Assembly (NCBI RefSeq): GCF_010093535.1
Contig: NW_022985197.1
Coordinates: 200,777 to 264,776, forward strand
DNA from: Lindgomyces ingoldianus
Lineage: Eukaryota > Ascomycota > Dothideomycetes > Pleosporales > Lindgomycetaceae
Reading direction: 5' to 3'
Length of the DNA stretch: 64,000 nt
A model generated the notes under the pieces. The model worked only from the letters and a program-made list of their open reading frames with translations, did not search any database and had not been told where the DNA came from. The position numbers and the translations under genes were made by a program. Positions 1 through 64,000 of this stretch are shown here, piece by piece; within the stretch, counting starts at the first letter, position 1, and each line of letters starts with the position of its first letter.

Positions 1-813
1 CTGGTCGCGCATAGGGCTAGTGCGCGAGGGACTCGGATCGGCAGAACAAAAAGCCGAGCAACACGAGTAGAGCAAAAAAGGATTGATAAATAAAACACAA
101 TCAACACAATCAATCAATCATCCCATACATCATATCTAAACCCATCATTCATCTCAGGAAGCCTAGAAACAGTGCTTAAATCTGACAAGTCTATAGGCTT
201 GTTAGAGCTTTTAACATGTTAATCTTATTATTCTAGTACTTTAGGCTAGTCTTATTCTGTAATGTTACCTCTAATATCCCTATGTCCTTTGTAAGTTATT
301 TATATAATAAAAATTATTTCTTGTTTTTTCTATTATTACATAGAGTTGTTAGTTGCTAATAAGATTTTATTATAATAGTATAGTTAATTACTTTTCTAGT
401 AAATTATGCAGGTACTGCTATTATCTAGCTGCTAGGTTGTGCAGCTTTAATAGCTTTAGTGTGCGCCTTACACTATCTTTTCTTTACTTTATACAGTAGC
501 AGAGCTTGCTGTGCAATGTAAAGGATTAATGTGCTATTATCTAGCTACTAGGTTGTGCAGCTTTAGTAGCTTTAGTGTGCGTTTTACACTATCTTCTTTT
601 TACTTTATATAGTAGCAGAGCTTGCTGTATAATGTAAAGAATTAATCTACTATCCTAAGGGATAAGTAACTAAATAAAGTACCTTGTAGGGTGTAGGTAC
701 TCTGCTGTTACTCTTTTTAAAGGATAAGTAACAAAATAAAGTACCTTATAAAGTGTAAGTACTTTATTATTACTCTTACTAATTTATAGTTAATTAAATT
801 AACTACTAATTAG
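1..813. repeat. AT-rich RIP-degraded DNA with nested tandem duplications
   Basis: This stretch holds no supportable gene. A short GC-richer piece at 1-60 looks like the cut end of a repeat. Two tandem copies of a ~118-bp unit lie at about 418-535 and 536-653 (both run from the ATTATCTAGCTRCTAGG motif to the TGTAAAGRATTAAT motif) and differ mostly by C/T and G/A. A second tandem pair with a ~63-bp unit (GGATAAGTAACWAAATAAAG start) lies at about 657-780. The differences fit RIP acting on duplicated DNA. Confidence 0.7.
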
Positions 814-1093
814 TGTTAAATAGGCTCTAACAGCTAGCTGCTTATAGTATAAGCACTTAAGTAGTAAGAGTAAGAGTAGTGTACAGTGTGCACAGTGTAC
901 AAGGTAGGTAAAGTAAGGGCAACATGTTTCTAGTTCTATTGCTCTTGTCTTTCCTCTGTACAGAGGAAAAGGGGGATATCTAGATGTTCGCGCACAGAGG
1001 TTCGCGCACGAGCATCATGTGACATAGATACGTGATCCTGCTCGTGCGCGATCGCTCGTATCCAGGCCGCGACGCTGCTGCTGCGTACAGACA
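814..1093 (+). repeat. Repeat family A, copy 1 (280 bp, nearly intact, LTR-like ends)
   Basis: The unit starts TGTTAAATAGG and ends TACAGACA, so it has the TG..CA ends of an LTR. It contains a perfect 20-bp palindrome at 950-969 (arms TTTCCTCTGT/ACAGAGGAAA), a direct repeat of GTTCGCGCAC around 985-1010, and a GC-rich 3' half ending in GCTGCTGCTGCG. Copies occur at 2840-3105 (+) and 5121-5401 (-). This is the least mutated copy. Sequence shared with copy 2 also extends upstream of 814, so the real element boundary may be further left. No coding capacity is seen and no target-site duplication is clear. Confidence 0.7.
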
Positions 1094-2839
1094 GATAAAG
1101 CATTACTTTAATTATATAAAGAACTATAGTCTAAATAATCCTTTATATTCTTTTAAGCTTCTTCTACATTATTAATAGCTATATGTACGTAGTAAGCTAT
1201 ATTGCCTATTAGTGTAGTATACATTTTAGGATTTATTTATAAATGCATTATTCTATTAATTAATTATAACCTAAAGTGCTAAATAGAGGTTACTATATAG
1301 TGCCTTATATATAGGCTTAATTAAGAACATTACTTATTTAAGTTTAAGTTACCCTTAGCATGCTTATATAATAGCAGTATAAAGCAGTATCTTGCCTTAG
1401 AATTATAGACTAAGAGCTTTTTATATAAAAGTAAGTTTATTAATTATAGCTTTAAAAGCTTTATATAAAGTTTTTATAAAGTTTTTTTACTTACTTTATG
1501 TAAAGCTTATTATTATCTAATCTGTCTAATACTAGTTATAGTTTATGTTAGTATTAAAGTAATTACTAAGCTGCTTATATAGTAACTTCTATAATTATCC
1601 TAGACTAATATTATAAAAGTAAAACATATGTGCGTGCTTTTTAAAGATATTAGAAAAGATGCTTACATATAATGCTTTAAAAATAGTAAAGTGTTAGTAA
1701 AGCTTAATAAATACTATAGCTTTATTAGCTAAAATATTATATAGTTACTTTATATAGTTATTCTTCTTTCTCTATGCCTTCTAGAATTATATAACCTTCT
1801 TAGGTGTAAGGTTCTCTGCTGTAATATCTTATATAAGTAGAAGTTAGTATAAATTGTATAGTAATTAAATTATATATAGTAGGTACAAGCTTTAGAGAAT
1901 CTTATATAGAGCTATAGCTACAGGAACATGTAGCTGCCTAGTTATGCTCTTATATAGTAAGCTATTATAAGGTAGTTATACTAATTATAGAGAAAGTATT
2001 AAGTCTATAAGTAATTTATATAGAGACATTCTCTATTGCATTAAAACTAGTAATAGTAGTAATAGTTTTATATAATGCTTTAGTAAAATAGTAAATGTGT
2101 GTTCTTTTTTTATAAGTCTATATAGTGTAGTAGCCTTTATTATGTCCTTTTTAAAGCTAATGCTTTTATTCTGCAAGGTAGTAATTAGTTCTTATAGAAA
2201 TAGTTAGCTAAGATTTTTAAAGTGTATAAGCTTCTACTTTATAAAGTTATTCTAAAAGTTCTTAAGTGTACATATATCTATTATGCTTAACATGTAAAGT
2301 TCTATAATTAAGTTAGCTGTGTATAAATTAAGCTTTTTTTTAAGTATATTATTTAATAGTTTAATTTTATTTACTTAATTTTTAATATTTATCTACTTTA
2401 CTAGAGTCTTTACTAAGATGCTTATAAAAGGTACATATTAGTTATACATTAATATGTTATGCTAGCTAGTTATAAATAGAGCTAGCGTTGCTTATTACTC
2501 TATAGTAGTTAGTTATGCGTTGTTGCGCGCTATCTTACTTCTTGTTGTACGCTACCTCTAAACAGCCTTATGTAAAAAGATAAAATAGACCTCTTAGTGT
2601 TAAACAAGCACTACTATTTATATAATACCTCTAAACAGTATTATATAGATAGGTTTTTTACTTTTGCTTAAGTAACTAAATAAAGATTTATAGCTACTTA
2701 TATATAAATTAAACTCTATCTTTACTTTTACTAATTTATAGTTAAAGTAGTAAAGAAAAGAATTTTTCTTATACATAAACTTTTAAATAAAAAAGTATAA
2801 AAAAAGCTTTTTTTTTATAGTATTTAAACTACTAATTAG
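1094..2839. repeat. RIP-degraded AT-rich DNA, no recognisable gene
   Basis: The stretch is very AT-rich with dense TA dinucleotides and no open reading frame of interest. I see no motif that allows family assignment. Probably ruined transposon sequence belonging with repeat family A. Confidence 0.55.
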
Positions 2840-3105
2840 TGTTAAATAGACTCTCTGCTAGCTAGCACTTAGTGTTAGTAAATGTGTACAAGACAGAGAG
2901 GTTTGCACAGTGTAAATATTACATAGGGGTGTTAAGTAACTAGTGTTAATTACTTCTTATTTTTCCTCTGTACAGAGGAAAAGGGGGATATCTAGATGTT
3001 CGCGCACAGAGGTTCGCGCACAAGCATTATGTGACATAGATACGTGATCCTGCTCGTGCGTGATCGCTTGTATCCAGGCCGCGACGCTGCTGCTGCGTAC
3101 AGACA
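2840..3105 (+). repeat. Repeat family A, copy 2 (266 bp, partly decayed)
   Basis: Direct copy of 814-1093, again TGTTAAATAG..TACAGACA. The 3' 150 bp is almost identical to copy 1, including the TTTCCTCTGT/ACAGAGGAAA palindrome at 2962-2981. Differences in that half are C-to-T or G-to-A (for example CGAGCATCATG read as CAAGCATTATG). The 5' half is more diverged. About 20 bp upstream (ending CTACTAATTAG) are also shared with copy 1. Confidence 0.7.
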
Positions 3106-3637
3106 TATACCTTTATTTCTATCTTTATAGATTAAGTTTGCTAGCTTCCTATACAGCTGCTAGGTTAAACTACAACCTGCCTTCTTTATCCTGCTAACCC
3201 TACACTCTGCTTAACAGACTGTACACCTGATCCAGCTAAGTTTATCCCCTTCTATCGCTAACATCACCTTAGGCTGTTGTACTCCTGAAAATACTATTTT
3301 ATTAGAGTAAGGATTGTAACAGACACTAGAGCCTTTAGGGCTAAAACTTAATAAAGCAGCTTAGTATTCTAGTAGAACAAGGCTACCTAGACGCTAGCTG
3401 TAGGAAGACTAGCTTCCTAACTCTTTATAACCTACGCTACCTACGCTAAGTTCTAAGTAAACTCTAAAATAGCATTAAAAGCTTTTTTTTTATCTTTTTT
3501 ACTCTTTATATTTTAGGCTGCTGCCTATAGATTAAGATAGCTTTAAAAAACTAAAATTTTCTTTTTATAATATAAAAGAACTTATGTGTGTGTTAGTAAA
3601 CTATACCCTAGCTATATTAAACTATATTTATATAAAG
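3106..3637. repeat. AT-rich RIP-degraded DNA around a solo LTR
   Basis: No supportable gene. This is degraded repeat DNA that served as the target for the clean solo LTR at 3638. Confidence 0.5.
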
Positions 3638-3865
3638 TGTCCGAACGTTAATCACAGGTATATTGATCCAACTCTGTGTGGATATCACGTAAGCTTATCT
3701 CACGTGATATCTGTGCGGGCTTGGCAGGGGGCCAGTATAAAACCAGCCATCCCAACGTACTTAGGATGGCAGCCGTCACCAGAATCAATACATTGTGTTG
3801 CCTGCTCACCTCTTGGTACGCCCCTTGGGCGTACGTTCGTTCGATCGAACCCAGGTCAACCGACA
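3638..3865. mobile_element. Solo LTR (228 bp), not RIP-mutated, 5-bp target-site duplication
   Basis: A GC-normal island in AT-rich surroundings. It starts TGTCCGAACG, ends AACCGACA, and is flanked by TAAAG at 3633-3637 and again at 3866-3870, the 5-bp duplication expected of LTR-retrotransposon integration. Inside are a TATA box (TATAAAA at about 3736-3742), an inverted repeat with GATATCACGT/ACGTGATATC arms at 3681-3711, and a hairpin with 8-bp arms GTACGCCC/GGGCGTAC at 3816-3834. The small reading frames here are by-products. A size below the usual RIP length threshold and recent insertion both fit its lack of mutation. Parent family (Copia or Gypsy) is not determinable. Confidence 0.85.
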
Positions 3866-3870
3866 TAAAG

Positions 3871-5120
3871 TTACATTTTTTATTATGTAAAGTGTAATAT
3901 TTACATTTCTTTAATTTAAAAAACTAATAAAAAAACTTAACTTAAAAGCTATAAGTAAGAGCGTAGGTAGCCTAAAAGTAGATAACTTAAAACACTTCTA
4001 AAAAGGCTCTAGAAGGGAGGTAAAGCAGCATAGTAAATTTCTTTAATACTATAATTAGTTAGTAGACTAAGCTATAAGATATTAAGTGCATAATAATACT
4101 TATAAAGTAAAAATTTAAATAATAGCTAAAAAAGAAACTAATAACATTAACTAAACTATATAAGTAAAGTAAGTAAACACTTATTACTATAAATAATAAA
4201 TTTACTATATTAATAATAACTACACTACTAGTTACTACTAAATAAAAACATTATAATAAAGGCATTATATTAGTATTAGGTTTTTAGTTTATTTTTTAGT
4301 AATAAAAATTTTTAGTTAAGATAGTTATACTTATTATATTTTATTTAAATTAGTTTTAAAGCATTTTTAAATACTTTTTAAATACTGCAGATAAAGACTA
4401 TTAGCTTATAAAAAAGAGAGTAGTGTAATAATTTTATAAATTATTCTATCTTAGGTTGCTTAGATCCTATCTAAAGGGTCTCTATATTAGCTCTAACTAT
4501 AACTTAACCTAGTCCCCTACAGTTACCTCTATTCCCTTATGTATTTAGTTGCACCTTGCCTCTGTAGCTAGCTTAGTAGTTTTCTAATATCCTTTTATAC
4601 AAGGCCTATAGGTGTTAATAGCATTCCTAGGTTTAGAGTCCCTACGCACTCCTATATGCTTCTGAGTGGATTCCCACCGCATTTAGACCTATTGTCTTGC
4701 CTGCGCCGTTACATCTGTCTAGATAGAAGCATCTGTAGACTAGCTAGATCCTGTGCACAAAGATGCTTTAAACTAACTAGACTAATAACACCTTTATATA
4801 AGGCTTATTTTCTTTTATTTTCTTTTTTTTATATTATATACACTTATTTTTTTTATTATAAGGATCTGTCACTGCTAGCACTATATAAAAAGAAAAAAGA
4901 GCTAGGGAATTATATAGTAGAGCTTAGAAAGTAAAAGATAAAGAAAAGAAAAGCTATTTACATAGCACAACTAGCCTATTCTAACGCACAGCATTACTAG
5001 GGGCAAGTCTTAATAAATAGGGTAGAGTAAAGGCAAAATATAATTAAATAAACTTATATAAACAGAAGGGAAGTAACACGTATAAAAAGTAACTTTTTAA
5101 ATAAAAAGAAAAGTTGCTAG
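3871..5120. repeat. RIP-degraded AT-rich DNA, no gene
   Basis: Mostly very AT-rich. A slightly GC-richer patch near 4440-4790 contains a short open frame of 92 codons with no recognisable domain, which I do not call. Nothing else is supportable. Confidence 0.5.
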
Positions 5121-5401
5121 TGTCTATATACAGCAGCAGTGTTACAGCCTAGATATAAGTAATTACGCATAAGCAGGATTATATATCTATGTTATATAAT
5201 ACTTATGTGTAAACCTTTATACATAAATATCTAAATATCCCCTTTTTTTTTCTATATAAAGGAAAGATAAGAGTAATAGAACTAGAAACATGTTGCCTTT
5301 ACCTTACCTACTGTATACGCTGTGCACACTGTACACTACTCTTACTCTTGCTACTTAAGTGCTTATACCATAAGCAGCTAGCTGTTAGAGCCTATTCAAC
5401 A
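5121..5401 (-). repeat. Repeat family A, copy 3 (281 bp, inverted, heavily RIP-mutated)
   Basis: Reverse-strand copy of 814-1093, 281 bp against 280 bp. Its outer ~170 bp (5228-5401) still matches 814-986 well. In its inner half nearly every C and G of copy 1 has become T or A: the GTTCGCGCACAGAGG stretch of copy 1 is read as ATTTATGTATAAAGG. Comparing the copies displays the RIP process directly. Together copies 1 and 3 form long inverted repeats 4 kb apart, which could also be the ends of one larger element. Confidence 0.7.
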
Positions 5402-5795
5402 AATATAGCTAATTCTTTGCACACTAAGTATAATCTAGGCTATATTAGTATAAACTAGCCTAGTCTGTTTATAAAGTGTTTTTTAAAGCTTAAAGTAAAG
5501 TTTTAAGTATAAGTATAGTTAATAGATATTTAGCTTATAACAAAGCTTATTTTACTAAAGTTATACATGTTATTATTTTAAATACTATACTTAGCTTTAA
5601 TATTCTTTATAAGGCTAAACTTACTCTAAATTACTCTAAGACTTTTATAAAAAGCTTTTTTATAGTTATACTATGCTTAAATGTTACTTTAAGCTTTAAA
5701 TAATGCTTCTTAAATATACTAGGCTATTTTATACTAATATAGCCTAGATTACGCTTAGTGTGTAAAGAATTAGCTATATTAGCTATAAATGCTAT
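5402..5795. repeat. Inverted-repeat element (arms ~125 bp, MITE-like or DNA-transposon remnant)
   Basis: Bases 5402-5530 are matched in inverted orientation by 5670-5795: AATATAGCTAATTCTTTGC at the left is found as its reverse complement at the right end. The ~140-bp centre is AT-rich and non-coding. The right arm is part of a longer sequence repeated at 12.1 kb. RIP-type differences blur the arms. It may be a MITE or the folded remains of a DNA transposon. Confidence 0.5.
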
Positions 5796-6140
5796 TTTAA
5801 AAAAAATCCTTGCGCATATAGCTTAAGTATAGTTTTAATAATTACTTATTTTTTATTACTACCTAGCTTTTAAAAGTTAGCTATAAAATTAGCTTATAAA
5901 AGTTATTTAGTGCTATAGTTATTTATTATCTTTTAAAGAGCTTTATACATAGCTATAGTATGTTTTTTAAGAGTTTTATATTTTATTTAAAAGCTTAAAG
6001 TGTAAGCTATATCTAATGTTCTTTTAGCACATTTAAGTAGTGTTATTAAAAATGCATTAGTGTAGGAAAAGTAGTTTAGTAGGGTCTTAGTAAAAGTAAG
6101 TAACTTAGGTGTGTAAGCAACTTGCCTGTAAAGTATGTTA
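5690..6140 (+). repeat. Repeat family B, left copy (~450 bp)
   Basis: Direct repeat of about 12100-12560. Both copies run from an ACTTTAAGCTTTAAATAA motif through TAGCCTAGATTAYGCTTAG to GTGTGTAAGCAACTTGCCT. Differences are mainly transitions. The two copies bracket the Gypsy element, whose target-site duplication shows independent insertion. Confidence 0.65.
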
Positions 6141-6196
6141 ATAACATATATAGCTTTAATAAAATAGGCTTTATAGTAGGCTAGATATTTACTAAC

Positions 6197-6514
6197 TGTC
6201 ACGGTATCCTCCCCGGATCCCAGACATAACTGTATTAGACGCGTACTAGAGTATTATTAGTGCACGTCTAACACAAACACAACATAACACAGACATAAAC
6301 TTAAGCACAAACTGCCTTAACACTAACTAAACCTAAAATAGGCTTAATTTATACCTAAAGCGCTTAGACTTCTAAGCTAAGTATTTAATTACTAATTTTC
6401 TTCTAAACCTTTTTATTTCTTACATAATGTTTTATACTTACTATAATACTTTATGTAGTAATTAAACTAGACCTCTGTAAAGCTCTATAACCTTACTTAT
6501 GCATAATTATAACA
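6197..6514 (+). repeat. 5' LTR of the Gypsy element
   Basis: 318 bp, starting TGTCACGG and ending TAACA after RIP. It keeps more C/G near its start (CCCCGGATCCCAG) than the 3' copy does, while the 3' copy keeps more near its end, so each LTR was mutated in different parts. Confidence 0.85.
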
Positions 6515-8030
6515 TTATGTTGTGTTAAAACTCTAGCTAAAAATAGCCTCTAAATCTAATTTAATAAGCTTAGTACTTACATAACTTTAAGCTATTAGAG
6601 TAAGCTAAGAAGCCTTTTAAAAAGCGCTTACTTTATAAAAAAGCTGCTATATTGTAAGCTTTAAAGCTTTTTAAAAGAACTTTAAAAAATAGCTTTATGT
6701 TATTAAGTAGTCTGTTTTTACTTTAACTTTTATTATAGTAGTAGAAACTAAAAACTTACTAGCCTTAAAGCTTACTTAGAAGTCTAGAGATAGCTTAACT
6801 TTTTTCTACTTAACACTACCTACAACCTGTAACCTTTCTAACTTAGTAATAAAATCTAACTAACTCTCTAATCCTTTACTATTTAATAGAAAATAGAAAG
6901 ACCTACTTTCTTTTTTACATAAGCTTTAATATAAACTTAAAGAAAATATAAACTAATTTCTCTTTAAACACTCTTAGTTACTATATACTTACTTTTAACT
7001 TAACTATAATATAACAGCCTTAATTAACTTACTAATAAATAAAAATATTATTAACCTAGATTAATTTATAGTGTTTTTATAAGTAACTTATAAAGACTTA
7101 AATAAAAAGTTAACAGCCCTAAGTTACCTAAACACCTTATAATAAAAAAAAAAAGCTTTACTTTACACTTTACTAAGTTCTACTAACTTGCATTTAATAT
7201 AGGCCTAAATAAGATAAGTCTAATTATAGCCTTATATAACTCCCTCTTAACTAAACTGTAACGCGCTATAGTAGGAGAACCCCTTTTAAATAACCTTAAC
7301 GCGTATACAAACCTAATTACTACCTATAATAATAACATAAGGTTCCTCTCTATACAAGCCCTAATACGCCCCTAAACTAGCGCAGTTATAAATAAAAACT
7401 CTAATATAATAAAAATTAATTTAAATTATGCTTTAGTTAGTTCTAAAAAGTGTAAAAATTATAAAAAAAAAAGTTAATACTTTAAGTGCAGTAAGCATAG
7501 TTATATTTTTTAAAACTACTTTATTCCTCTTTTTTAAGTCTATGTAAGTAGTGCTGCTAGCACTTATTAAAAATTCTTACTATTTTAATCTTATTTTTAT
7601 AAGAGCTTTAACTTATATTTAAGCCCTAATCTTTCTTACTACTCTTAACATAGCTGCAGCTATAGCAGTAGAAGCCTGTAAAAAGGCTTGTTCTAGGGCT
7701 AAGTTGCCCCTTAGAACTAATTTAACACTAGATCTCTACTAACCTATAGGCTAAGTCCCTTACTAATAACTAAAAGTACTAAGTTAATATTCTTATATGT
7801 TTATAATAAGAAACTATATTAGCTTTAATATAAGCTTTTATTAACTTAGAAGTAAATAGCATAAGTTATATTAATAAAGAACTAGCATGTAAACTAAATG
7901 TAGAGGATAAAATAGCCTAGCAGTAGCTGTTTAGAAGATTAGATAAAGTAACTCTGCTATCTAAAAGAGCTAAAGGCTCTCCTTATATACACTAAGCTTT
8001 AGAACATAATATCTCTAGATCCTAAGCTGC

Positions 8031-8098
8031 GTCCTAGGCTCTAAGCCCCTAGTCCTAGGCTCTAAGCCCCAGTCCTAGGCTCTAAGCCCTAGCTAAGG
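8031..8098 (+). repeat. Minisatellite inside the Gypsy element (~21-bp unit, three copies)
   Basis: Three near-identical copies of a CCTAGGCTCTAAGCCCC-AGT unit. It is GC-richer than its surroundings and lies upstream of the reverse-transcriptase region, probably within or just after the gag remnant. Confidence 0.6.
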
Positions 8099-11000
8099 CT
8101 CTTAGTATACGCGACACTAAATTTTTAATTAACACTACTTACCTAAATAATTTACTTAACTAGATTTAATAAAAAATAACTTAAAAAAAGTTTTATCTTT
8201 TATACTATAACTATTATAATTACCTACTAACACTATAAGGAGCAGATTAAGCTCTATGTAATAAACACAGGATGTTATAACCTAATTTTAGGACAACTAT
8301 AGCTGTATTAGCATAAAGTTACCTTTAATTACTAAAAGTAAGTTCTAAACTTTAACTCTTTCTAATGCTAAAATATATGCTTACACTTACACCTAAATAA
8401 CACTTAAGTAGCACTTAATATAGAAGGTTTCTAGACCTACTTTCTAATAACTTAAAAAAGAACTACTTAAGTAAGGCTAATAAGCTAGGCCTTTTACTAA
8501 AATAAGCTATATAAAATAATTTAACAACTACTTAAACTTAAAAAAAAAAAGCTTTTAAAAAATTTTTACTTACTTAATTTAAACATAAACTAGGACTTAA
8601 ACAGTAGATAGACATCTGCTACATAAAACCTGCCTTATTTATAACCCTAGCTTAATAACTAGATTATAAAATCTACATAGTTATAATTTCTAATATAGAC
8701 TAAGCTTTAGCTCTCTAAAAACATACTAACTTAAAAATAATAGTTTCTTAAGACTACTATAACTTATTATATGTCTTTTTCTAAAATAAGTTTAATAAGC
8801 TTTTAATATAATATCTATATAATTACTAGATAACTTTTAAGCCTAGTAAACAACCTAGTTATAAGCTACTATATAAAATGTTACTAAATAAATTAAAAGT
8901 GCTCTAAAAATACCTTAATAAAAACTTAAAAAAAGGTTTATTTAAGCTAGCTTCTTACTAGTAGTATTACTTATACTATTTATAAAGAAACTTAAGAGTA
9001 GGCTTTAATTCTATGTTAACTACTAAAGACTAAACACTATTACTATTAAAAACTAATACTTAATTCTTTTTTTATAAGAAACTCTAAGCTAACTAAGTAA
9101 AGTAAAGTATTTTATAAAGTTAAATATTATTACTGCCTTTAATAAGCTAAAGATAGTAAAGAGTAATAAGTAGCTAATAGTGTTTTAGACCTAATATAGA
9201 CTATTTAAGTACCTAGTAATGCTCTTTAGCTTAGCTAATGCGCCTAGTACTTTTTAACATTTTATAAACAACTTACTTTAACCCTACCTAGATGTGTTCT
9301 GCACTATGTATATTAACAACATTCTAATCTATAGTAATAGCCTTTTAAAGCATAAATAGCATGTACGCCTAGTGCTAAAAGCTATAGAAGAAGTAGGTCT
9401 ATAACTTAATGTAAATAAATGCAAGTTCTACTAATTAAAAGTTACATATTTAGAATATATAATCTCTATAAATAGCATCTAAATAGACCCTATTAAGGTT
9501 TAGACTGTGCTAGATTAGCAATACTTAAAAAATATAAAAGATGTTTAAGCTTTTATAAAATTTACTAACTTTTACTAATAATTTATTAATAACTTTTTAT
9601 AGTAAGTAAGCCTTATAATTATACTTACTAAAAAAAAAATTTAATTTAACTTTAACTTAAATTACTAATAGTTTTTTAACTAGCTAAAGAAAGCTTTTAC
9701 TAAAGCCTTAATACTCTACTACTTTAACTTTAAACTACTAATACTTGTAGAAGCTAATGCCTTAGACTACATAGTAGCAGAAGTTCTTTCTTAGACTAAG
9801 CTAGATAGGACTATTAGGCCTATTACATATTTCTTAAAAAGAATAAGTCCTGTAGAAGGTAATTATAAGATCTATAATAAAAAATTACTTACTATAGTAT
9901 ACTACTTTAAATAATAGCAACCTAAACTAGAAAGTGCAGCGCATTTAATATAGGTCCTATCTAACTATAAAAACTTACAGTACTTTACAACTATAAAATA
10001 ACTTAGCTACTAATAAGCTTATTAGTTTAAATACTTATTTTATTTTAATTTTAAGATTACTTATTATCCTAGTTAAAATAAAAGGAAACTAAATGCCTTT
10101 ATAAAGTAATCCTAAAACATCTTTACTTAAAAAAAAGTGTAAAAAGCTTAACACTAAACTCTACTTTAACTTAAGCTATTTTTAAACCTTAACTTAAATA
10201 AAATAAATTAGATAATTAATTAAATTATTACTAATAAGTATTTAAATAATAAATTTATCTAAGAAACTTTAGACTTACTTTAAAATAGCGCTAGTTAGTT
10301 AAAGAAGGTAACACTAGCTAACTATAAAAACTAAAATAGTAAGCTATATTACTATAACTAACTTATAATTCTTAATTTTAATAAACTAAGAATTAAACTA
10401 CTCTAAATTATACATAACTTGCCTATTAAAGGACACCTAGGCAGAGGAAAAACTCTTAACCTACTATAGAGAGAGTACTACTAGCCCTGCATGTTCTATA
10501 CTATACACTAATACGTATTATGTTGCTATACTTACTGTAAAGTAAAAGCCTTTTAAAAAAAGTATAATAGCCTACTTAAACTACTCCTAATTTTTAAATA
10601 AGCTTAAAAAGATATATTAATTAATTTTATTATAAACCTACTTTTATTTAAAGGGTATATAAATATTATAGTAGTTATTAATTACTTAACTAAGTATTAA
10701 CACTTAATACTATGTTCCTTTATAACTGCCTTTAATATAGCCTAGTTATTCTACTAATACATATAAGTTTACTATAGCCTGCCTAACATAATTATATTAG
10801 ATAAAGGTACATAGTTTATCTTAGCCTTCTAAAATAAACTCTGTAAATAGCTTTAAATTATTCTCTATTTATCTACAGCTTTTTACCTAGAGACTAACAG
10901 CTAGACTAAAAACATAAACACTATAATAAAATAAGTCCTATAAGTATATATAAACTACTAGTAAAATAACTAAGTAAAATAGTTAGCTACAGCATAGTTT

Positions 11001-11763
11001 AAAGCTAATAATATAATATTTAAATTAACATAAGTATCTTTATTTTTAGTAAACTATAGATACTACTTTTAAATAAAATTTAAACTACTTTTAAATACTT
11101 CTTAACTAACTTATTAATTTATATAAGTAATAAATATAAATAAACTTATTAATAAAATCTAAAATATATCTAAATATATTTATAAAAAGCTTACATAGGC
11201 TTAAGCTTTTTAATAAAAGTACATAAACTAATTTTAAACTCTTACCCTTACATATGCAGCTAGCAAAAAAGTCTAGCTAAATGCTAGAAATATCTAAATA
11301 AACTAATAATTAAAGAAACTTAATTAAAAAAACTTTAGCTCTTTTATAGTAGCTTATATAGTCTTATTACATGCTTACTAATTAATCCTACCTAACAGCA
11401 TAAAGATACACCCTGTGTTTTACATATTATTGCTGCGCTAAGCAGCCTTTAAATCTAACTATCTACCTAAACAGCTAAACCTACTACTTAAACCTATTAT
11501 TATAAATAATAAACTAGAATATGTTATAAAAAACATTAAATAGATTTAGTTTAATAAGAAAAAACATATCTATAAATACCTTATAAAATAAACTAGATAT
11601 AATAAACTATTATAAGAACTTATAAAAGCCCTATAAAAAAACTTTATAGTAACTTAATTTTATACTTAATACTTATCTAAACTAAACTTATACTCTAACA
11701 AAAACAACCTAATACTAGAACTACTAATATAAAGGATTTCTTTCTTAATAAAAGAGGGGGTAC

Positions 11764-12081
11764 TGTTATAGTATCCTTCCTAGATCCTAGACATAACTGT
11801 ATTAGACATGTACTAGAGTATTATTAGTGCATGTCTAACATAAACACAATATAATATAGACATAAACTTAAGCATAAACTGCTTTAATACTAACTAAACT
11901 TAAAATAAGCTTAATTTATACTTAAAGTGCTTAGACTTTTAAGCTAAGTATTTAATTACTAATTTTCTTCTAAACTTTTCTATTCCTTACACAACGTCTT
12001 ATACCTACTATAATACCTCACGTAGTAATTAAACTAGACCTCTGTGAAGCTCTATAACCTTACTCGTGCACAATTGTGACA
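11764..12081 (+). repeat. 3' LTR of the Gypsy element
   Basis: 318 bp, TGTTATAG..GTGACA, the same length as the 5' LTR, preceded by a polypurine tract at about 11748-11759 and followed by the CTAAC target-site duplication at 12082-12086. Differences from the 5' LTR are nearly all C/T or G/A transitions. Confidence 0.85.
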
Positions 12082-13446: not shown

Positions 13447-14727
13447 TTATTTTTCAAGTAGCTCAAACCACTCTGGAATCTCTTGAATAAGTCTCCACAT
13501 GTACTTCTCCAGGCTGACCGCGCACTTGGCGTATACCGTTGTTGGTTCATTATACTGCCGGCAATTACTAAAAATTAGCTTGAGGTCATCGACGAGGTCT
13601 TTCGGAGTAGCATAAAGACCATGCTCCAATTTTTCTTCCATAGTCGTTAGATCCATTGGTGATGTAATGACATTGTAATAATCAAGGACTTCGTCTTTGT
13701 CGACTGGCTTGAGGAAGGGCCATGCTTGTTTGTGGTTTTGGATTTGATACAGAAAACGTCTAAATTCGTTGAAATGAGGCCCGCGGCGTGGCTCCCGTGC
13801 TAATTCGTCCATTTCTGGAGACCAGCCAAGTGCCCGAATGGCAGGGATAGAGAATGGGTCGATTGGAGTGACAACATCGTTGGCCCATTGACGAGGTGGT
13901 TGATGGATGATGTGGCTTTTACTCAAGCTACGAATTTTGGCTTGTACGGTTTCCTTTTGCTTCTGAAGCATACGACCAACTTCGAGATAACGTATTCGAG
14001 GAAGCATAGTGCATTGCATGAGTGTCCCTCCTTCGTAGTCCTTGATATACCCCATCCAGGCGGACTTGGGGAGAGTGATCTCTTTGGTAAATCCTTGTTT
14101 TTGAAAATACCCCGTGGCAAAATTATCGGCGTAAGTCAGAAAATGCATCACTGGGGAAGTAGCTTTGACATAATCCTTCAAATGGGCCATGAGATGTGCT
14201 CCGTATCCCTTCACCTGCTGATCAGATGAGACAGCACAAAAAACGATTTCAGCAAAATTGCGGTTTCGGAATTCTCGGAATGATATTCCGCCAATGACCT
14301 CAAGAGGCATTTTGACGATGGCGAGAGACAAATGAGTGCGATCGTAGACGAGACGTGCGATGTAATCTTTAGGCATTTTTGGAAGTTGCTTTTGAAACAG
14401 GTTTTTAAGACCTGTAAGGATAATCGTACTCTCGCTTGTGCTATTATTATTAACAACTCGGAATTCGATCTCGCCATTTCTTTCTTCTAAAACTGCAGGC
14501 TTTAGAACAATTAGAATGTTTCCTGATATTTAAAGGAGCTAGCGAACCTTCTCTAGGATAGGAATTCTCCAGGTTGTAGCTGCAGGTTGAATATCTGGTT
14601 CTTTCAACCTATTATCAATTCTTTTGGTATCAGGAGCGGAATTCGGTTCTTCGGAAGCCGTGCGCTTCGCGACGAGGATATTTTGCCCGCGGTCGGCTGG
14701 AAATGAGTGCGACTCTGCTTTGTCCAT
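13447..14727 (-). CDS. gcn5: Histone acetyltransferase Gcn5 (SAGA/ADA catalytic subunit)
   Basis: Catalytic subunit of SAGA/ADA; acetylates histone H3 tails in the nucleus as a transcription coactivator. Two exons, 14727-14548 and 14499-13447, with a 48-nt intron (14500-14547, GTTCGC..CTAAAG, CTAAT branch) give 410 aa. The intron is placed because it joins ILEK to [16 protein letters not shown], the conserved entry to the HAT domain; reading through hits TAG. The GNAT core spans about residues 70-230, with the catalytic Glu in FAEIVFCA (about residue 144) and the acetyl-CoA loop QVKGYGA (155-161). A bromodomain fills about 300-400 ([20 protein letters not shown] with the acetyl-lysine-binding Asn). 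The start is the Met of [15 protein letters not shown]; an upstream in-frame ATG at 14877 would add 50 residues unlike the family. No defect is seen. Confidence 0.93.
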
Positions 14728-27344: not shown

Positions 27345-27480
27345 GGTCGGTTAGCTCAGTTGGTTAGAGCGTAAGTTGAAATCATCATTCGAGTGGTCAG
27401 CAATCACTAATACGACGTAGGTGGTGCTAATAGCTTCTGCTGTAACGCCAAGGTCGCGGGTTCGACCCCCGTACTGACCA
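27345..27480 (+). tRNA. tRNA-Ile(AAT) with two introns, one at a non-canonical position
   Basis: Acceptor stem GGTCGGT/ACTGACC (7 bp, one G-T), T8-A9, D stem GCTC/GAGC, anticodon stem TGGTG/CGCCA with loop CTAATAA (anticodon AAT at 27429-27431), T stem GCGGG/CCCGT and discriminator A. Two insertions must be removed. 27371-27420 (50 nt) lies between positions 25 and 26, starts GTAAGT, contains ACTAATAC and ends GTAG. 27433-27444 (12 nt) lies between A37 and A38, the standard site for tRNA-splicing endonuclease. A and B boxes are intact and TTTTT at 27485-27489 is a Pol III terminator. With both removed, the cloverleaf is complete. Confidence 0.85.
27371..27420 (+). other. Spliceosomal-like intron inside tRNA-Ile(AAT) copy 1
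   Basis: 50 nt between tRNA positions 25 and 26. It has GTAAGT at the 5' end, CTAAT with the presumptive branch A 10 nt before the 3' end, and terminal GTAG. Removal restores D stem-G26-anticodon stem exactly. Sequence is unrelated to the equivalent insertion at 29169-29219 apart from these signals. I could not fit a bulge-helix-bulge motif at its junctions by eye. Excision by the spliceosome is inferred, not shown. Confidence 0.6.
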
Positions 27481-27489
27481 TATCTTTTT

Positions 27490-29142
27490 GCCATTATTTT
27501 CGATCTCTCAATTTGTAGTGACAGCCGAGCGCCAAGCTCTCTGTTCACATGTCATAGTGAAATGAAATAACGGAAAGTATATAATAATTGTTATCGGGTG
27601 TCTAAATAAAACAGACAAGTGCGCTTTATTTTCCCTTTTTGGTTCATCGATTTTGGAGTTGTGTTGGAGGAGCCTTAGTCGTGCTGCCAACGCTTCTTGA
27701 GTGATCGACCGCATTAACTATCTATCATCATGGATGAGTAACCTAGAACTCCATTCGGGTGAAAAGACCTCCCAACTGCTTCACCCATAATGGATAACCC
27801 CAGGACACAAGAAATTCAGTAATTTAAACCCTACACGGTGACAATCGAGAATGCTGACAACCTAATATCTTTGAAGCATCCATGAAGCTTAGCCGTCAAG
27901 AATACGGAAACTTACAACTGCTTTGGTGGCGACAGTGCAACGGACAGAAGGTTTGCGCTAGAAACACGACCTTTCGTTTTACATTATTCCCGAATTATTC
28001 GAGCGGTTACATTCGCCCGGCTGCAAATATGCTTCCTGAGCCGGCAATTTATTCGCACTTGCGAAAATGAGCTCAGCTAAGGAAACAACCGGCACAGGAC
28101 CCGACAGCGAAAATTCCTGTCTATATCGGTACAGGCACCGAAATAGAAGAAGTTGCTAACAGTATCAACATGACCGGTATCCTTAGTTCGACCGGCCATT
28201 TCTGGTTGTGATGCAGAACAGCGGGCCGTAGGAGATAGTATCGGCACTTGATTTACAAACAAAACCTCTAAACGTCAGTTGTCCTAAATGCATTCGGGTT
28301 GCTGAGGCTAACCAAAGACAGCTATGAATGTTGGTAGGGTATTCCTGACATTCCGCCGGAATTCACTTCTAAGGTTAAGAAGAACTGTGAGAACCTAAGC
28401 GTTGACTGAGACACGAAATGGCATAGAGAGACAAGAAATATATCGCAAGAGGGCGTATCCATGGCATGTTTGCAGAATCCCACTGCCACTCCGCAGGATG
28501 GATTATCAGAGGCTGCAGTGACGAGAGAAATAGGCCGAGTAGGTAAGTCGAATTTTCAACCTTACCTCCAGGGAAGGCCGGGAACCCGGGAACCCGAACA
28601 TGGAATACATTCGCCATTCGAACATTCCCATTGCGCGGTCATCACAAGCGCCATCACCGCTCGACGGATGTGCCAGTAGTCTGCCTTTGAATCATCTACC
28701 AACAAAGCTATGGGCTTTAACAACAGGTTTCACTTCCTCGGCAAACAGAGCCATTAGCATTGTAGTTTCGTCGGTCTTCTGAGCCCTTAGACCCCATAGC
28801 CCAACCTTTAACATAGCTGACTTCGGTATGACAAAATATGCAGAGTGGCCGACCTCGCCGCGCACTGCCAGAAATCTGCAGGTCTCGAACCTTACCTATT
28901 TCCATGAGCGAAAATGTTCAGATCTATCAATATAGCCCACTTTTATCCTAGTGTTAAAATCAAGAAGTCGTAAAATTTCAAAGGTTCGTGGCCGCATCAA
29001 GGAGTGTGTTGGTGGCCAGTGCTCAGCCCCTCTGCGGAATTTTTTTTAAATGGGTCCATCTCTTGACGAATTGTCCTTCGCCAATTGACTATAGATATTG
29101 AACTTTTTTTGAAAACTCAAAAGCAGTTCAAAAAGTAGTTCG
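27490..29142. other. Spacer between the tRNA-Ile genes
   Basis: No gene recognised. Short open frames below 85 codons only, none with family resemblance. Confidence 0.45.
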
Positions 29143-29267
29143 GGTCCCGTAGCTCAGTTGGTTAGAGCGTAAGTGACAGGAACAGCAGCCTGTAGTCCAA
29201 GATTCTAACTCACAAGCAGGTGGTGCTAATAACGCCAAGGTCGCGAGTTCGACCCTCGTCGGGACCA
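29143..29267 (+). tRNA. tRNA-Ile(AAT) with a single intron at a non-canonical position
   Basis: Acceptor stem GGTCCCG/CGGGACC (7 perfect pairs), D stem GCTC/GAGC, anticodon stem TGGTG/CGCCA with loop CTAATAA (anticodon AAT at 29228-29230), T stem GCGAG/CTCGT, discriminator A. A 51-nt insertion at 29169-29219 lies between positions 25 and 26 and starts GTAAGT, contains TTCTAAC and ends GCAG. There is no insertion at 37/38. A and B boxes are intact and T6 at 29276-29281 is a terminator. The acceptor stem differs from copy 1 by paired changes, so both copies are under folding constraint. Confidence 0.88.
29169..29219 (+). other. Spliceosomal-like intron inside tRNA-Ile(AAT) copy 2
   Basis: 51 nt: GTAAGT donor, CTAAC branch motif with its A 11 nt before the end, CAG acceptor. 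Removal gives a perfect tRNA. The same tRNA position is interrupted in copy 1. Internal short helices (CAGG/CCTG and GTGA/TCAC) exist but do not pair exon with intron as a bulge-helix-bulge would require. Confidence 0.65.
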
Positions 29268-29281
29268 CAGCGTAGTTTTTT

Positions 29282-58887: not shown

Positions 58888-60600
58888 GTCTAAGATGCCC
58901 TGAAAAGAATAATTAATAGAGGATGTAGAGATGAGGAGGAAGGAAGGTGTTCGGGGCTAATTGCTGTTATTCTAGTCCTACGTGCCTTCTTGACCCTCGT
59001 TGCCAACTCTCCCATTTTCTTTATAGCCATACCCATGGCGATGAAGCTGTGGCTACAGAAATCTGTGGAACTCAGCAAAGGAGTTAACAGCAGTGTGCTT
59101 ATAAGCACGTTTTCGTATTCCTCGCAATCATGATGGCTTACTTGGCGGACCTATTGGCGTTGCTCCAACATCGCACAGAATATACTAGAAAAGTTGCACG
59201 CTCGAGATGGGATATGATAAAATAGTATGGCAGATAAAATAAGAATGGCTATTCGTTCCTAAGGGTAGGATCATAAGTAGAAAAAACATAGAGAAACCAG
59301 AACAGCATGGAGTGTCACTTAGGGTGATTGAAGCCCTCAAGCTCTGGGTTAGATACCGTTATTAATGTGTAATGAAGGGTCATTGTTCCCCATGGTGACT
59401 ATGCTAGCTGTCCCAACGTCTTCTGCGGTTGTCTTTTCCATGTGGATGCATAGACATCGTACGTTCCTTGTCTAATCACCGGAACCATGGTCCTATCTGG
59501 TGACAAAATAGGTACATGATGGGGATAGGAGGGTTGCCGTTCACGTAGTGTTTAGGACTTCCTCCAACGAAGGAAATTGAGGATTACCCCTTAGCATTCG
59601 GGGAGCATTACTTTAAAAACTGGTCATTACGGTGACGCAAGTGGCTGAAAGAAATAAGACCATCAGTTGTTCCGTATTAGATCTCAAGGCTGAGAAAGGA
59701 TACTTGACTAACGAATGCTAGCGACATCCGAACTTGGTTGGACTGAGCTGACCCCTAGAGTAAAGTTCAGGAGTAGGGATTATGGAAAGCTAATCATCTT
59801 AGTAGATGAGGTGGTGGGCTAGGTGCGAATTCTGAGAATTGGGGCGACATTGTGTTAGAGTTGGTCACCTTCAGCTGAAGCCCAAGTCTGAGTAATGTGT
59901 TCCACCAGTCGTCCGGCCAGTGAGGCCAAAACCCACTAAAAATAACGAAAACTGTATCTCAAGATCTCAACAACCGCTTGAAATAACAGTTCTAGATTTA
60001 TAATACAGCCATTTTTGCGCCTCTAGAGCACACTGTAAATAAATAGAAGAGAATAATACAATTATTCCGCAGATATTTGGTTTTAGCTATATTTTAGCCC
60101 TATTTTGGCACCCAAACATGATATTTTAACAACAGTGTAAGTGTAAACTCTAAGCCTCGAATATAAATTTTAGAAGAGGTATAAAATGCTCATCTTAGAA
60201 TCATAGACCTTTCTGCTTTTCCGTTGTTGAGATGTTAAGTTGAGAATTTCGTAATTTTCAAGTAGTTTTTCGTGACTAGTGGAACACGTTAGTTAACGAA
60301 TTCAAGAGCTTATGTAACCGTGGTGTGTCAGCACATTCCCAGTTCCTTATCTTATCGGGGCTGTACTTGCCAGTGATCCACCAGCCGGTGAATTCGCTCA
60401 CAAGAGAGAGCATCATGCTTAACTTAGTTTATTCCCTCGACATCGAGGTTATCTAAACATCTAGGATATAAAAGCCTTTTGAGGTCAGATTGACTGCAGC
60501 TTCAGCTCGACCCTGGCCATGTAACTTTCTTCAAAGCTTTGAGAGAACAGCCTCGGCGCCAGAGACTTATCTCACGAGTCAGACCCTCAACCCAGAATCG
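58888..60600. other. Intergenic, no recognisable gene
   Basis: Balanced composition with no open frame over 75 codons and no family resemblance. It leads into the second AT-rich block. Confidence 0.45.
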
Positions 60601-60624
60601 CCCTTAACTTATTTAGGAATAGAC

Positions 60625-60694
60625 AGAACTTCTAAAACTTCTAAGCTAATTAAAACTTCTAAGAACTTCTAGAAACTTCTAAACTAATTAAAAC
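60625..60694 (+). repeat. AACTTCTAR minisatellite at the left edge of the second AT-rich block
   Basis: Irregular tandem copies of a roughly 10-nt AAAACTTCTA unit, with TAATTAA spacers. Its reverse complement resembles the unit at 63841-63970. Confidence 0.6.
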
Positions 60695-60916
60695 ACACTA
60701 AATAAGAGAGGGGCAATTCTGTCCTAAAAGTCTAAGAGAAAATAGTAGTTATTTATGTGTATCTTAATTTATCTATTAGCTATTAGCGTTACTATCTTTA
60801 ACAGTGTACTTTACCTCCTAATACTATGTTAAAATTCTTAAAATTGTTATTACTGTAAAGCGCTTGTCTTGCTCTATAATATACATTAAATATAAATAAT
60901 GCTAGCACTCTATCTA

Positions 60917-60961
60917 ACACGCTAGCAGACGCACTAGTAGACGCACTAGCAGACGCGCTAA
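60917..60961 (+). repeat. 12-bp tandem repeat (ACGCACTAGCAG), ~3.5 copies
   Basis: Four imperfect units with C/T differences. It is GC-richer than its surroundings and encodes Ser/Ala repeats in one minus-strand frame. Confidence 0.65.
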
Positions 60962-61814
60962 CTATAGCTTTATTTAGCAACTTTTCCCTATTATTAAGCC
61001 TACCTTCTAGGCTCTTTTAGCTAACAAGTAACTCTCTAATTAAATAAAATAAAAATATGTTTATGCTAGATTAACCTATAGACTATAATAATAATATAGG
61101 TGCCTCTAGCAACCTTACCTAGGCAGGCAGGATCTCTGGCGCCTCCACACGGCGTCGTAGTCCTATGTTGTGGCGTGAGAAGTTGCAGTACATAGTAAAC
61201 ACGTTGCAGACTGTCTAATAAAGCTTTTAAGACTTTATGCTAGAATAAGTAGATAATAAAAAGGATAATACACTTTTTTAGCATTACTAGTATTATAAGG
61301 CGTGTAACAGGCAGCACATGCTAAAGACTTTAATAGACTTACTTTTTAAAATAAAAGTCTTTTATATAGAGGATGTAATAAATTATTGCGCTTTAAAGCT
61401 AAATTAGCTAGTATAAGAGATATACTTTAAAGATTTTAATTTTAATATAGATATATTAACACTTAACTTTAATAATGCTAGTTAAACTATTTAGAATTAA
61501 GCGCTAACTTAGTATAACTTTATTATAAGCATATTACGCAATTTACGCTAGGGATATGTAAGCTACTAAGGTGCTAATAAGTCTAATGTAATTAAAAAGC
61601 GCGTGTTTACTATTACTAGTATTATGTGCTTCTTTTAGGCTAAGAAGAGATTAAACACTTTAGCATTTATGCTAGATGCTTATTTTATTAGGTCTAAAAC
61701 AAAGTGTTGTGTAATTAAAGTTTTAAGTAGACTTAGGTTATATTATTTATATTATTACACTAATAAGCTAATAAATAAGGTTGTAGAAAAAGCTTAAGTA
61801 TATATGCTATTTAG

Positions 61815-61916
61815 TACTTTTAATACTTTTAATACTTTTAATACTTTTAATACTTTTAATACTTTTAAAACTTTTAAAACTTTTAGAACTTTTAAAACTT
61901 TTAAAATTACTTATAA
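61815..61916 (+). repeat. 9-bp tandem repeat (ACTTTTAAT/ACTTTTAAA), ~11 copies
   Basis: A homogeneous run of ACTTTTAAT followed by ACTTTTAAA variants. It falls inside the degraded DUF6589-like reading frame. Confidence 0.75.
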
Positions 61917-63840
61917 ACCTTTAGGCTAATAAAAACTAATAGTGCTAAAAAAAATAAATTATAAGTTCTTATAAAGAACCTAAAGCTAGTACTTATGTAT
62001 AATAATATTAACTTTATAGATTACACGCGCTATAAGAAGGCAGGCTATACAGCTACTATGTAAAGCATAACAAACGCTGTAGCTATTTTAGCTTCTAAGC
62101 TACCTAAGTCTAGTCTTACTTAGTCTATGCATAACCTAGCAGTTCTTCTAGGTTTTAAGGACATTATACTTAGCCCTAGATTAGATAGGCTAGATAGTAT
62201 TAATAATAATATATTCTAAAGTCTTATTACTAATTTAATTAAGCGTCTCTACTTAAAAGCTATATTGCATGTCTTTAGTAGTAGAGCATTTTTTAAATAC
62301 CTAGCATTCTCTATTTTAAACTACTTACTCTTAGTTAAGACTAAGTATTATTAGTTAAGTGCTATATTTAATAAAAAAAAGTTTATTAGTAAAACTTATA
62401 AAGTTTATAATACTATTTAGCTAAATTAATTAAGTCTAAACATGCCTAACAACCTTGCTAATATTTCTAGTAATAATTTTAATAATTACTTTTAGTTATG
62501 CTATAGTAATTAGCTTACAGCGCGTAATATCTACTTAATATAAGGTAAACAGGTTTAAGCAACTTAACTGTATAATAAAAAGCAGTAGTTGCTTAGTGTT
62601 TCTGCATAGTTCTATGTGTAAATAAACCTTTTGTTAACTATTAGCTAAACACATTAAGGCCTAGTTATAGTAGATAAGGTTGCACACTATACTATTAAGT
62701 TAGATGTTGTTATGTAGTGTTAAACACAGCTTACATAAGACAATAGTAAATACTATCTACTAGAACTGTTAGTTATTTAAGGGTTTATGTCCTATGTTAC
62801 TGCACTGTTTTATACTACTATGCAACGCTAACACCTTTTTCTAGAACATACAACTAATAAGTTCTTCTTAAAGCGCCTTAGTTATATAAAGAATGCTATT
62901 AAAAATCTTTTAGTAAATAATTTCTTACAGCTAGTTAAAAACATACGCACTGTTGCCTTTAAGCGTCAGGTGTGGGGTTCTAGCGCTAGTGTAGATAATG
63001 TTGAGTTCTGTACCATGTGTTGCATGCTCTAGGAGATTAAGCTCTTCCTTGCAGTACACTATGCTATTAGGTACAGCAATATTAGCATGTTATAACACTT
63101 TATAAATCCTCTTATTATTGTTTTCTTTAGCGCTAGGTAGATAAATTATAGCTAGAAAATGCTTTAGTATTACTAGCTTCTCTTGCTAGCTAACACTGCA
63201 GAGTTATAGCATGCTATCCTTGCATCTAGTCTTATAAACTAGTATAGACAGGAAAACATGTTTAAGCTAATTAATCTAGGCCTAGAGCATCTTAACTATA
63301 GCTATAAAATTAATTTAAAAAACTATAAAAACTTTACACATAATATTAATTAAGTGTTTAACTAGACTTGCCTCTGTAATGTCTAGGTAAAGAAGGTGTA
63401 GATAGCGTTAGAGAGGGTCTTTAGTAAGAATATGCCTAGTAGTTATACTTCTGCTATTACTATTTAAAACATGTTCCTCTTAGCTTAAATACTTATTATA
63501 GATAGATTAGTAGCGCTTTAAAACTTAAATAATTTAGTAAGCTATAAGTTCTTTAACTTATTTAATATATACACTGCTAGGATAGATATGCTTAAGGCAG
63601 AGGTTAATAAATTTAACTGCGCGCATGTGCAGCTTTAAGGCTCTGTAGACCTTCTATATCTAACTGCCTAACCTAACACCACAGACAATTCTAAGTTTGC
63701 TAATATTGCTAAGTACGCGCGCGCAGTTAGAGATAAGTTTAATGTAATTATAGACCTAGCAATTACTAGTAGTGCTACTAATTAGATTAGAAGCTAATAG
63801 AAGTTCTAATAATTAATAGCCTTTTATAATTACATTAAAA

Positions 63841-63970
63841 GTTTTTAGGAGTCTACAAAAGTTTCTAGAAGTCTACAGAAGTTTCTAGGAGTCTATAGAA
63901 GTTTCTAGGAGTCTACAGAAGTTTCTAGGAGTCTGCAGAAGTTTGTACAAGTTTGTAGGAGTTTGTAGAC
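63841..63970 (+). repeat. 20-bp tandem repeat (GTTTCTAGGAGTCTACAGAA), ~6 copies
   Basis: Six units of 20 bp with single-base differences, decaying to GTTTGTAGGAGT variants at the right. It lies just past the coding remnant and mirrors, in inverted orientation, the minisatellite at 60625-60694, so the two may mark the ends of the element. Confidence 0.75.
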
Positions 63971-64000
63971 AGTAGAATTATAGAGTTATATACAACATTA

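Follow-up and report, generated by a model that had tools for sequence, protein, structure and literature searches.

Candidate spliceosomal introns in tRNA genes of Lindgomyces ingoldianus

Eighteen inserts interrupt 16 tRNA genes in the genome of the ascomycete Lindgomyces ingoldianus, in which about 50 tRNA genes were recognised by a search that is incomplete. We consider it highly probable (about 0.88) that these inserts are short spliceosomal introns of the ordinary fungal U2 type, lying within functional Pol III-type tRNA genes. They appear spliceosomal on every feature that can be seen in DNA, and what seems new, judging by the literature searched, is the tRNA gene as the class of host. 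From these features we infer both that the inserts are spliced and by which machine. Two of the genes lie in the window, by which we mean the whole 64-kb stretch of DNA analysed here. The other 14 lie outside it.

Two interrupted tRNA-Ile(AAT) genes

The window contains two matches to the Rfam tRNA model RF00005. Gene 1 (29143-29267, + strand) scores 42.8 bits with an E-value of 9.6e-6, and the model treats its extra letters as an insertion. Gene 2 (27345-27480, + strand) is the second match, at 40.1 bits. ARAGORN, run in its bacterial setting, found zero tRNAs in the 64-kb window. The window is A+T-rich at positions 1-12000 and 60001-64000 (24-31% G+C, with tandem repeats) and has 40-60% G+C in between. 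The parts of gene 1 are as follows.

29090..29093, + strand: TATA, 53 bases 5′ of gene 1 (found by the looser TATA motif only; the stricter motif misses it)
29143..29168, + strand: tRNA-Ile(AAT) gene 1, 5′ exon with acceptor strand, D arm and A box (Rfam RF00005; cloverleaf check)
29169..29219, + strand: gene 1 insert, 51 nt at 25/26, GTAAGT...CAG (sequence; cloverleaf check)
29205..29209, + strand: CTAAC within the gene 1 insert, candidate branch A at 29208
29220..29267, + strand: gene 1, 3′ exon with anticodon arm, T arm and B box (Rfam; cloverleaf check)
29276..29281, + strand: gene 1 Pol III-type terminator, T6

The insert (GTAAGT...TCTAACTCACAAGCAG) is placed after position 25. Removal of 29169-29219 leaves a 74-nt cloverleaf with the anticodon AAT, in which the acceptor (7/7), D (4/4), anticodon (5/5) and T (5/5) stems are fully paired. 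When all removals of 30-119 nt were enumerated blind to splice signals, the best score was a tie of three registers with an identical product, and one of the three is GTAAGT...CAG. The fold permits insertion at 25/26, 26/27 and 27/28 equally, and GT-AG selects 25/26. An initial annotation of this gene had given its letters and coordinates correctly, and its description of the insert (GTAAGT at the start, CAG at the end, and CTAAC 11 nt before the end) also agrees with ours, in which it is the A of CTAAC that stands at this distance. It had further reported a T6 terminator and intact stems, and concluded that the gene does not look dead; the terminator is present and pairing is complete once the insert is removed. 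The annotation went further and stated that the tRNA folds if, and only if, these 51 nt are cut out. The full cloverleaf is indeed restored by that cut, but three registers are equivalent, so the wording goes a little too far.

Gene 2 has an insert at the same position (GTAAGT...CACTAATACGACGTAG), and also an ordinary intron.

27345..27370, + strand: tRNA-Ile(AAT) gene 2, 5′ exon (Rfam RF00005)
27371..27420, + strand: gene 2 insert, 50 nt at 25/26, GTAAGT...TAG (sequence; cloverleaf check)
27407..27411, + strand: CTAAT within the gene 2 insert, candidate branch A at 27410
27421..27432, + strand: gene 2, middle exon, through A37
27433..27444, + strand: gene 2, ordinary 12-nt intron at 37/38
27445..27480, + strand: gene 2, 3′ exon with B box
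27485..27489, + strand: gene 2 Pol III-type terminator, T5

Between the mature forms of the two genes, 8 of 74 positions differ; together they make up four complete base pairs, three in the acceptor stem and one in the T stem, and all four are still paired. The interiors of the two inserts are alike only at the level of shuffled sequence (457/1000 shuffles reach the score). Because the exon changes are paired and the insert interiors are at shuffle level, it looks as if selection maintains the tRNA together with its splice signals, and the remainder of the insert is free to drift.

Census of interrupted genes

The assembly that holds the window has 68.4 Mb in 99 contigs. In a profile search with RF00005, 63 of 3779 candidates were scored, with 34 matches; this census is incomplete, since both window genes were missed. 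B-box patterns were searched as well. GGTTCGANYCC occurs at 114 places, of which 112 were inspected. AGTTCGANYCT occurs at 150 places, 59 of which were read and about six of which lie in loci already known; past the known genes, the places inspected contained a single degenerate Glu-like copy. GGTTCAANYCC is found at 128 places in the genome vs. 130 for its control. Further genes came from BLAST with the spliced forms and from one pattern for inserts after A58. The latter contains the 5′ splice site, and its nine places comprise five tRNA genes (two already known) and four that are not tRNA genes. The GT of the three genes found through it (L192, L195 and L196) is thus not independent evidence.

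The inserts were found in genes for Ile(AAT) (two), Ile(TAT), His(GTG) (two), Thr(TGT), Ser(GCT), Gly(TCC), Arg(ACG) (with two inserts), Arg(TCT), Glu(TTC) (two), Leu(CAG), Lys(CTT) and Leu(AAG) (two, one with two inserts). The total of about 50 tRNA genes is reached by adding to the 34 RF00005 matches the two genes of the window, another ten that bear inserts, and four ordinary genes (L051, L061, L070 and L122). Four of the 16 insert-bearing genes are among the 34 matches. The weak match L046 is counted, and the damaged or odd L036, L054, L126 and L135 are left out.

The insert of gene 1 is no lone oddity, as 15 further genes bear inserts. The initial annotation had read it as a spliceosomal-type intron in a tRNA gene, a reading that would have suffered if no other tRNA gene had shown the pattern. 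The 15 further genes do show it, and putative spliceosomal removal is still the best reading.

Several other tRNA-like loci were seen along the way. L126 (contig C33, B box at 263763) has the ends of a Leu-type tRNA, with an acceptor stem of 7/7, a D arm and a T stem of 5/5. Its core of about 150 nt is G+C-rich and strongly folded, and the whole 231 nt folds at -95.9 kcal/mol. We did not find a recognisable anticodon arm or intron in it, nor an Rfam family past the T arm. A reading as a cloverleaf with one intron was rejected, as the sequence does not resolve in this way. Several degenerate tRNA-Glu-like copies are clustered on contig C7 at 1699300-1700460 (L076, L173 and L174). The 5′ half of a tRNA-Ser (L135; contig C60, 187102) and a Lys-like tRNA whose anticodon arm pairs poorly (L046; contig C95, 14176) are fragments or decayed copies.

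Insert anatomy

The ends are GT-AG in 17 of the 18 inserts and GG-AG in one. Seventeen are 48-53 nt long and the other is 86 nt. All 18 contain a YTRAY motif with the A placed 9-13 nt before the 3′ end, compared with a mean of 3.2 and a maximum of 10 in 5000 shuffles; some inserts hold additional YTRAY matches, one with its A at 15 nt. The narrower CTRAY, for which distances of 6-20 nt between the A and the 3′ end were accepted, occurs in 16/18 inserts vs. 1.4 in shuffles (maximum 7 in 5000). The GG-AG insert is in L190 (contig C8, 354024 onward), the second of the Leu(AAG) genes, which bears two inserts. The first of these starts with GG, and its branch site and AG are intact. The GG start may reflect mutation of the 5′ splice site or an error of sequencing, or the intron may be of a rare GG-AG kind.

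GT-AG falls in a register that the fold allows. For the first 12 inserts, the probability of this by chance, taken as the product of the numbers of equivalent registers over 256, is 10^-23.5, assuming equal base frequencies. Eleven of these inserts were found by tRNA signals alone, and that of gene 1 was supplied by the initial annotation. Signal-blind enumeration was applied to nine genes, and in seven the top tie (2-3 registers) includes the GT-AG register. The Gly gene gave a wide tie that includes one GT-AG register, and the Ser gene gave no information because the scorer favours a short variable arm. The spliced products of all 16 genes are cloverleaves, each with an acceptor stem of 7/7 and a T stem of 5/5. 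In their GT-AG ends, branch sites and mRNA-like anatomy, the inserts have what would be expected of U2-type spliceosomal introns.

Introner-like mobile elements would share insert sequence, and such sharing is not seen. Among the first 11 inserts, blastn-short gave no match over 8 nt, and a single mobile element was rejected as the source for want of a common sequence among them. Three pairs of inserts at the same position were compared. The Leu(AAG) pair at 30/31 looks related (4/1000 shuffles reach its score), and the His pair (91/1000), like that of Ile, does not.

One mRNA intron of the window, in a Gcn5 gene, was verified by homology and serves for comparison.

14500..14547, - strand: Gcn5 gene mRNA intron, 48 nt, GTTCGC...TTCTAAT...AAG (exon homology)

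Its joined exons align to solved GCN5 chains without a gap over the junction. The branch A is 11 nt from the AAG 3′ end. With this single verified intron (n=1) the tRNA inserts agree in length and branch distance, and its unusual GTTCG and AAG ends recur in the Gly insert and one His insert. A survey of mRNA introns in the window based on ORFs was set aside; its first form gave four candidates, and its second gave two vs. four in a reversed control.

Twelve U6-like matches were found genome-wide, eight of them above the Rfam cut-off. The three copies that were fully read (L175, L176 and L177) lack an intron and differ from one another. A search for 5.8S listed one match, L189 (contig C67, 242753-242906 and flanks), a degraded rDNA copy with C-to-T changes and 32% G+C. 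It matches 5.8S and the 5′ part of the LSU (LSU positions 1-1362 over 1341 bases). Changes of this kind are as expected of repeat-induced point mutation.

Insert positions and transcription signals

The inserts are at nine kinds of position by hand-assigned numbering, none of them 37/38. They lie in the D loop (Gly), at 24/25 (Arg TCT), 25/26 (both Ile AAT genes) and 30/31 (Arg ACG and both Leu AAG genes), in the variable arm (Ser), and at 51/52 (Glu), 52/53 (Arg ACG), 53/54 (both His genes and Thr) and 58/59 (Leu AAG, Leu CAG, Lys, Glu and Ile TAT). Ordinary 37/38 introns, which do not have GT-AG ends, occur separately in several of the 16 genes, Ile gene 2 among them.

Eleven of the 16 genes have an uninterrupted B box in their DNA, because the insert lies upstream or because the intron's own AG provides positions 52-53. 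The box is broken after A58 in the five genes with a 58/59 insert. By the looser motif, a TATA is found 25-65 bases upstream of all 16. A T-run lies within 20 nt downstream of 15, and L183 has none within 60 nt. The stricter TATA motif is found at 27/29 ordinary tRNA genes vs. 9/10 of the first insert-bearing genes, and T-runs at 29/29 and 10/10, respectively. Cloverleaf, internal boxes and terminator together are those of functional nuclear tRNA genes.

These flanks bear on the possibility that the inserts are removed from Pol II precursors, made by read-through or from promoters of their own, which would be spliced as Pol II RNA and then trimmed to the tRNA. Spliceosomes do normally act on Pol II RNA, and the incomplete B box of five genes would fit. 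However, the TATA and T-run flanks resemble those of the 29 ordinary tRNA genes, and no ORF of at least 250 aa overlaps either tRNA gene of the window. Pol II origin is less likely because of the Pol III-like flanks, and we regard it as improbable.

The positions bear on a second possibility, that the inserts are ectopic introns cut by the tRNA-splicing endonuclease at bulge-helix-bulge sites and that their GT-AG ends are coincidental. Archaeal introns also occur at 25/26, 30/31 and 53/54, and the D and T arms carry introns in nucleomorph and red-algal tRNAs (PMC4090602, PMC9602550; partial texts). We did not find a bulge-helix-bulge motif in the 11 inserts tested out of 18. Nine of these form no 4-bp central helix at the cut; the other two form a helix without flanking pairs and are equalled by 29 and 36 of 300 shuffles. 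A GT start, branch site, AG and length of 48-53 nt are moreover foreign to the endonuclease mechanism. Endonuclease cutting is thus a very improbable explanation of the inserts.

Isoacceptor supply and tRNA maturation

For several isoacceptors, every intact gene found in this incomplete census bears an insert. These are His(GTG) (two genes), Ile(AAT) (two), Ile(TAT) (one), Glu(TTC) (two) and Leu(AAG) (two), and also Leu(CAG), Gly(TCC), Arg(TCT) and Thr(TGT) with one gene each. BLAST of the spliced forms found no intron-free copy of His or Ile(AAT), although other tRNAs had relatives among its hits, at 82-93% identity; it missed the diverged L036, and intron-free copies may have escaped the census. 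Intron-free genes were found for Ser(GCT) (L014) and Lys(CTT) (L009).

L036 (contig C1, 3081274 onward, minus strand) is a third Ile(AAT)-like gene, without an insert at 25/26. It has a 37/38-type intron, and its T loop is 2 nt short. L054 is an Arg-like, insert-free gene whose acceptor stem is poorly paired on reading.

The insert-bearing genes are likely to be needed by the cell. We go no further than likely because L014 and L009 are intron-free, L036 and L054 exist without inserts, and BLAST may miss diverged copies. That the interrupted genes are dead copies, with intron-free genes supplying the cell, is the least credible explanation: insertions in the arms of eukaryotic tRNAs are commonly read as pseudogenes (PMC4090602; partial text), damaged or odd tRNA-like copies occur here (L036, L054, L126, L135 and L046) and the census is incomplete, but several things speak against it. 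All 16 cloverleaves are well formed and accompanied by promoter and terminator signals, and the changes that separate the Ile genes of the window are paired. Among the genes found, no intact intron-free one is for His, Ile(AAT), Ile(TAT), Glu(TTC), Leu(AAG) or others of these isoacceptors. A branch site 9-13 nt from the AG is also not expected in all dead copies.

If the inserts are spliceosomal introns of Pol III-type genes, Pol III would transcribe the tRNA gene through the intron. The nuclear spliceosome would then join the exons after recognition of a GTRNGT-like 5′ site, a branch site and an AG. The tRNA body would fold only after this removal. Trimming of the ends and addition of CCA would follow, and the tRNA-splicing endonuclease would cut the 37/38 intron where there is one. 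This last cut is placed at the end because the endonuclease recognises the tRNA body. We think that the spliceosome is quite probably obligatory for a large share of the cytosolic tRNAs, including all tRNA-His and tRNA-Ile, and that it would constitute a second natural route of tRNA maturation. The reading of several codon families would then require that Pol III transcripts be spliced in the manner of pre-mRNA. In genes that have both kinds of intron, the spliceosome would act first and the tRNA endonuclease second.

Relation to known introns

Canonical 37/38 introns are numerous in this genome. They differ from the inserts in their site and in the lack of GT-AG, and the two kinds share some genes. 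An artificial yeast precursor tRNA that contained a pre-mRNA intron was reportedly spliced by the pre-mRNA machinery (Koehrer et al. 1990). Such a construct would be a proof of principle, but an artificial one, whereas the inserts described here are natural and occur in many genes.

Introns outside 37/38, sometimes several in one gene, are also found in archaea, nucleomorphs and Cyanidioschyzon (PMC4090602, PMC9602550; partial texts). Ectopic tRNA introns of the endonuclease type have been described (PMC4090602; partial text), and a search for non-canonical introns has been applied to archaeal candidates (PMC8450103; partial text). The archaeal and red-algal introns have a bulge-helix-bulge and are cut by the tRNA endonuclease, unlike the inserts here with their GT, branch site and AG. 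For nucleomorph tRNA introns, the removal mechanism is given as unknown (PMC4090602, PMC9602550; partial texts).

The nearest precedents are the spliceosomal introns of fungal U6, U3 and lichen rDNA. According to PMC5832005 (2017; partial text), no small structured RNAs other than U3 and U6 are known to carry introns often, and the abstract of that paper describes U3 as transcribed by polymerase III. As here, the introns of fungal U6 and U3 are normal spliceosomal introns in genes for small structured RNAs (PMC5832005; partial text), but each is one gene family, in contrast to the many tRNA isoacceptors here. Ectopic spliceosomal introns, one of them 57 bp, occur in the rDNA of Cladonia grayi and other lichens, and yeast removes one such intron from Pol I rRNA (PMC8527467; partial text). 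These are likewise short, spliceosomal and located in non-Pol II structural RNA of ascomycetes, but the RNA is rRNA and not tRNA. The initial annotation had held that a Pol III transcript in need of the spliceosome would, to its knowledge, be new. That is too broad given the introns of U6 and U3; confined to tRNA, the claim agrees with the open-licence literature searched, in which we found no tRNA gene described as having a spliceosomal intron.

Significance

The splicing of tRNA is taught as a system separate from that of mRNA. The enzymes of tRNA splicing are still described as distinct from the spliceosome in a review of 2026 (PMC13149111; partial text). If the tRNAs for His and Ile are spliceosome-dependent in L. 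ingoldianus, translation would be bound directly to spliceosome activity. The genes would also provide a natural system in which to study the route of Pol III transcripts to the spliceosome and the gain of introns by structural RNAs. Introns of this kind could explain apparent gaps in the tRNA sets of annotated genomes, because tRNA finders do not look for them.
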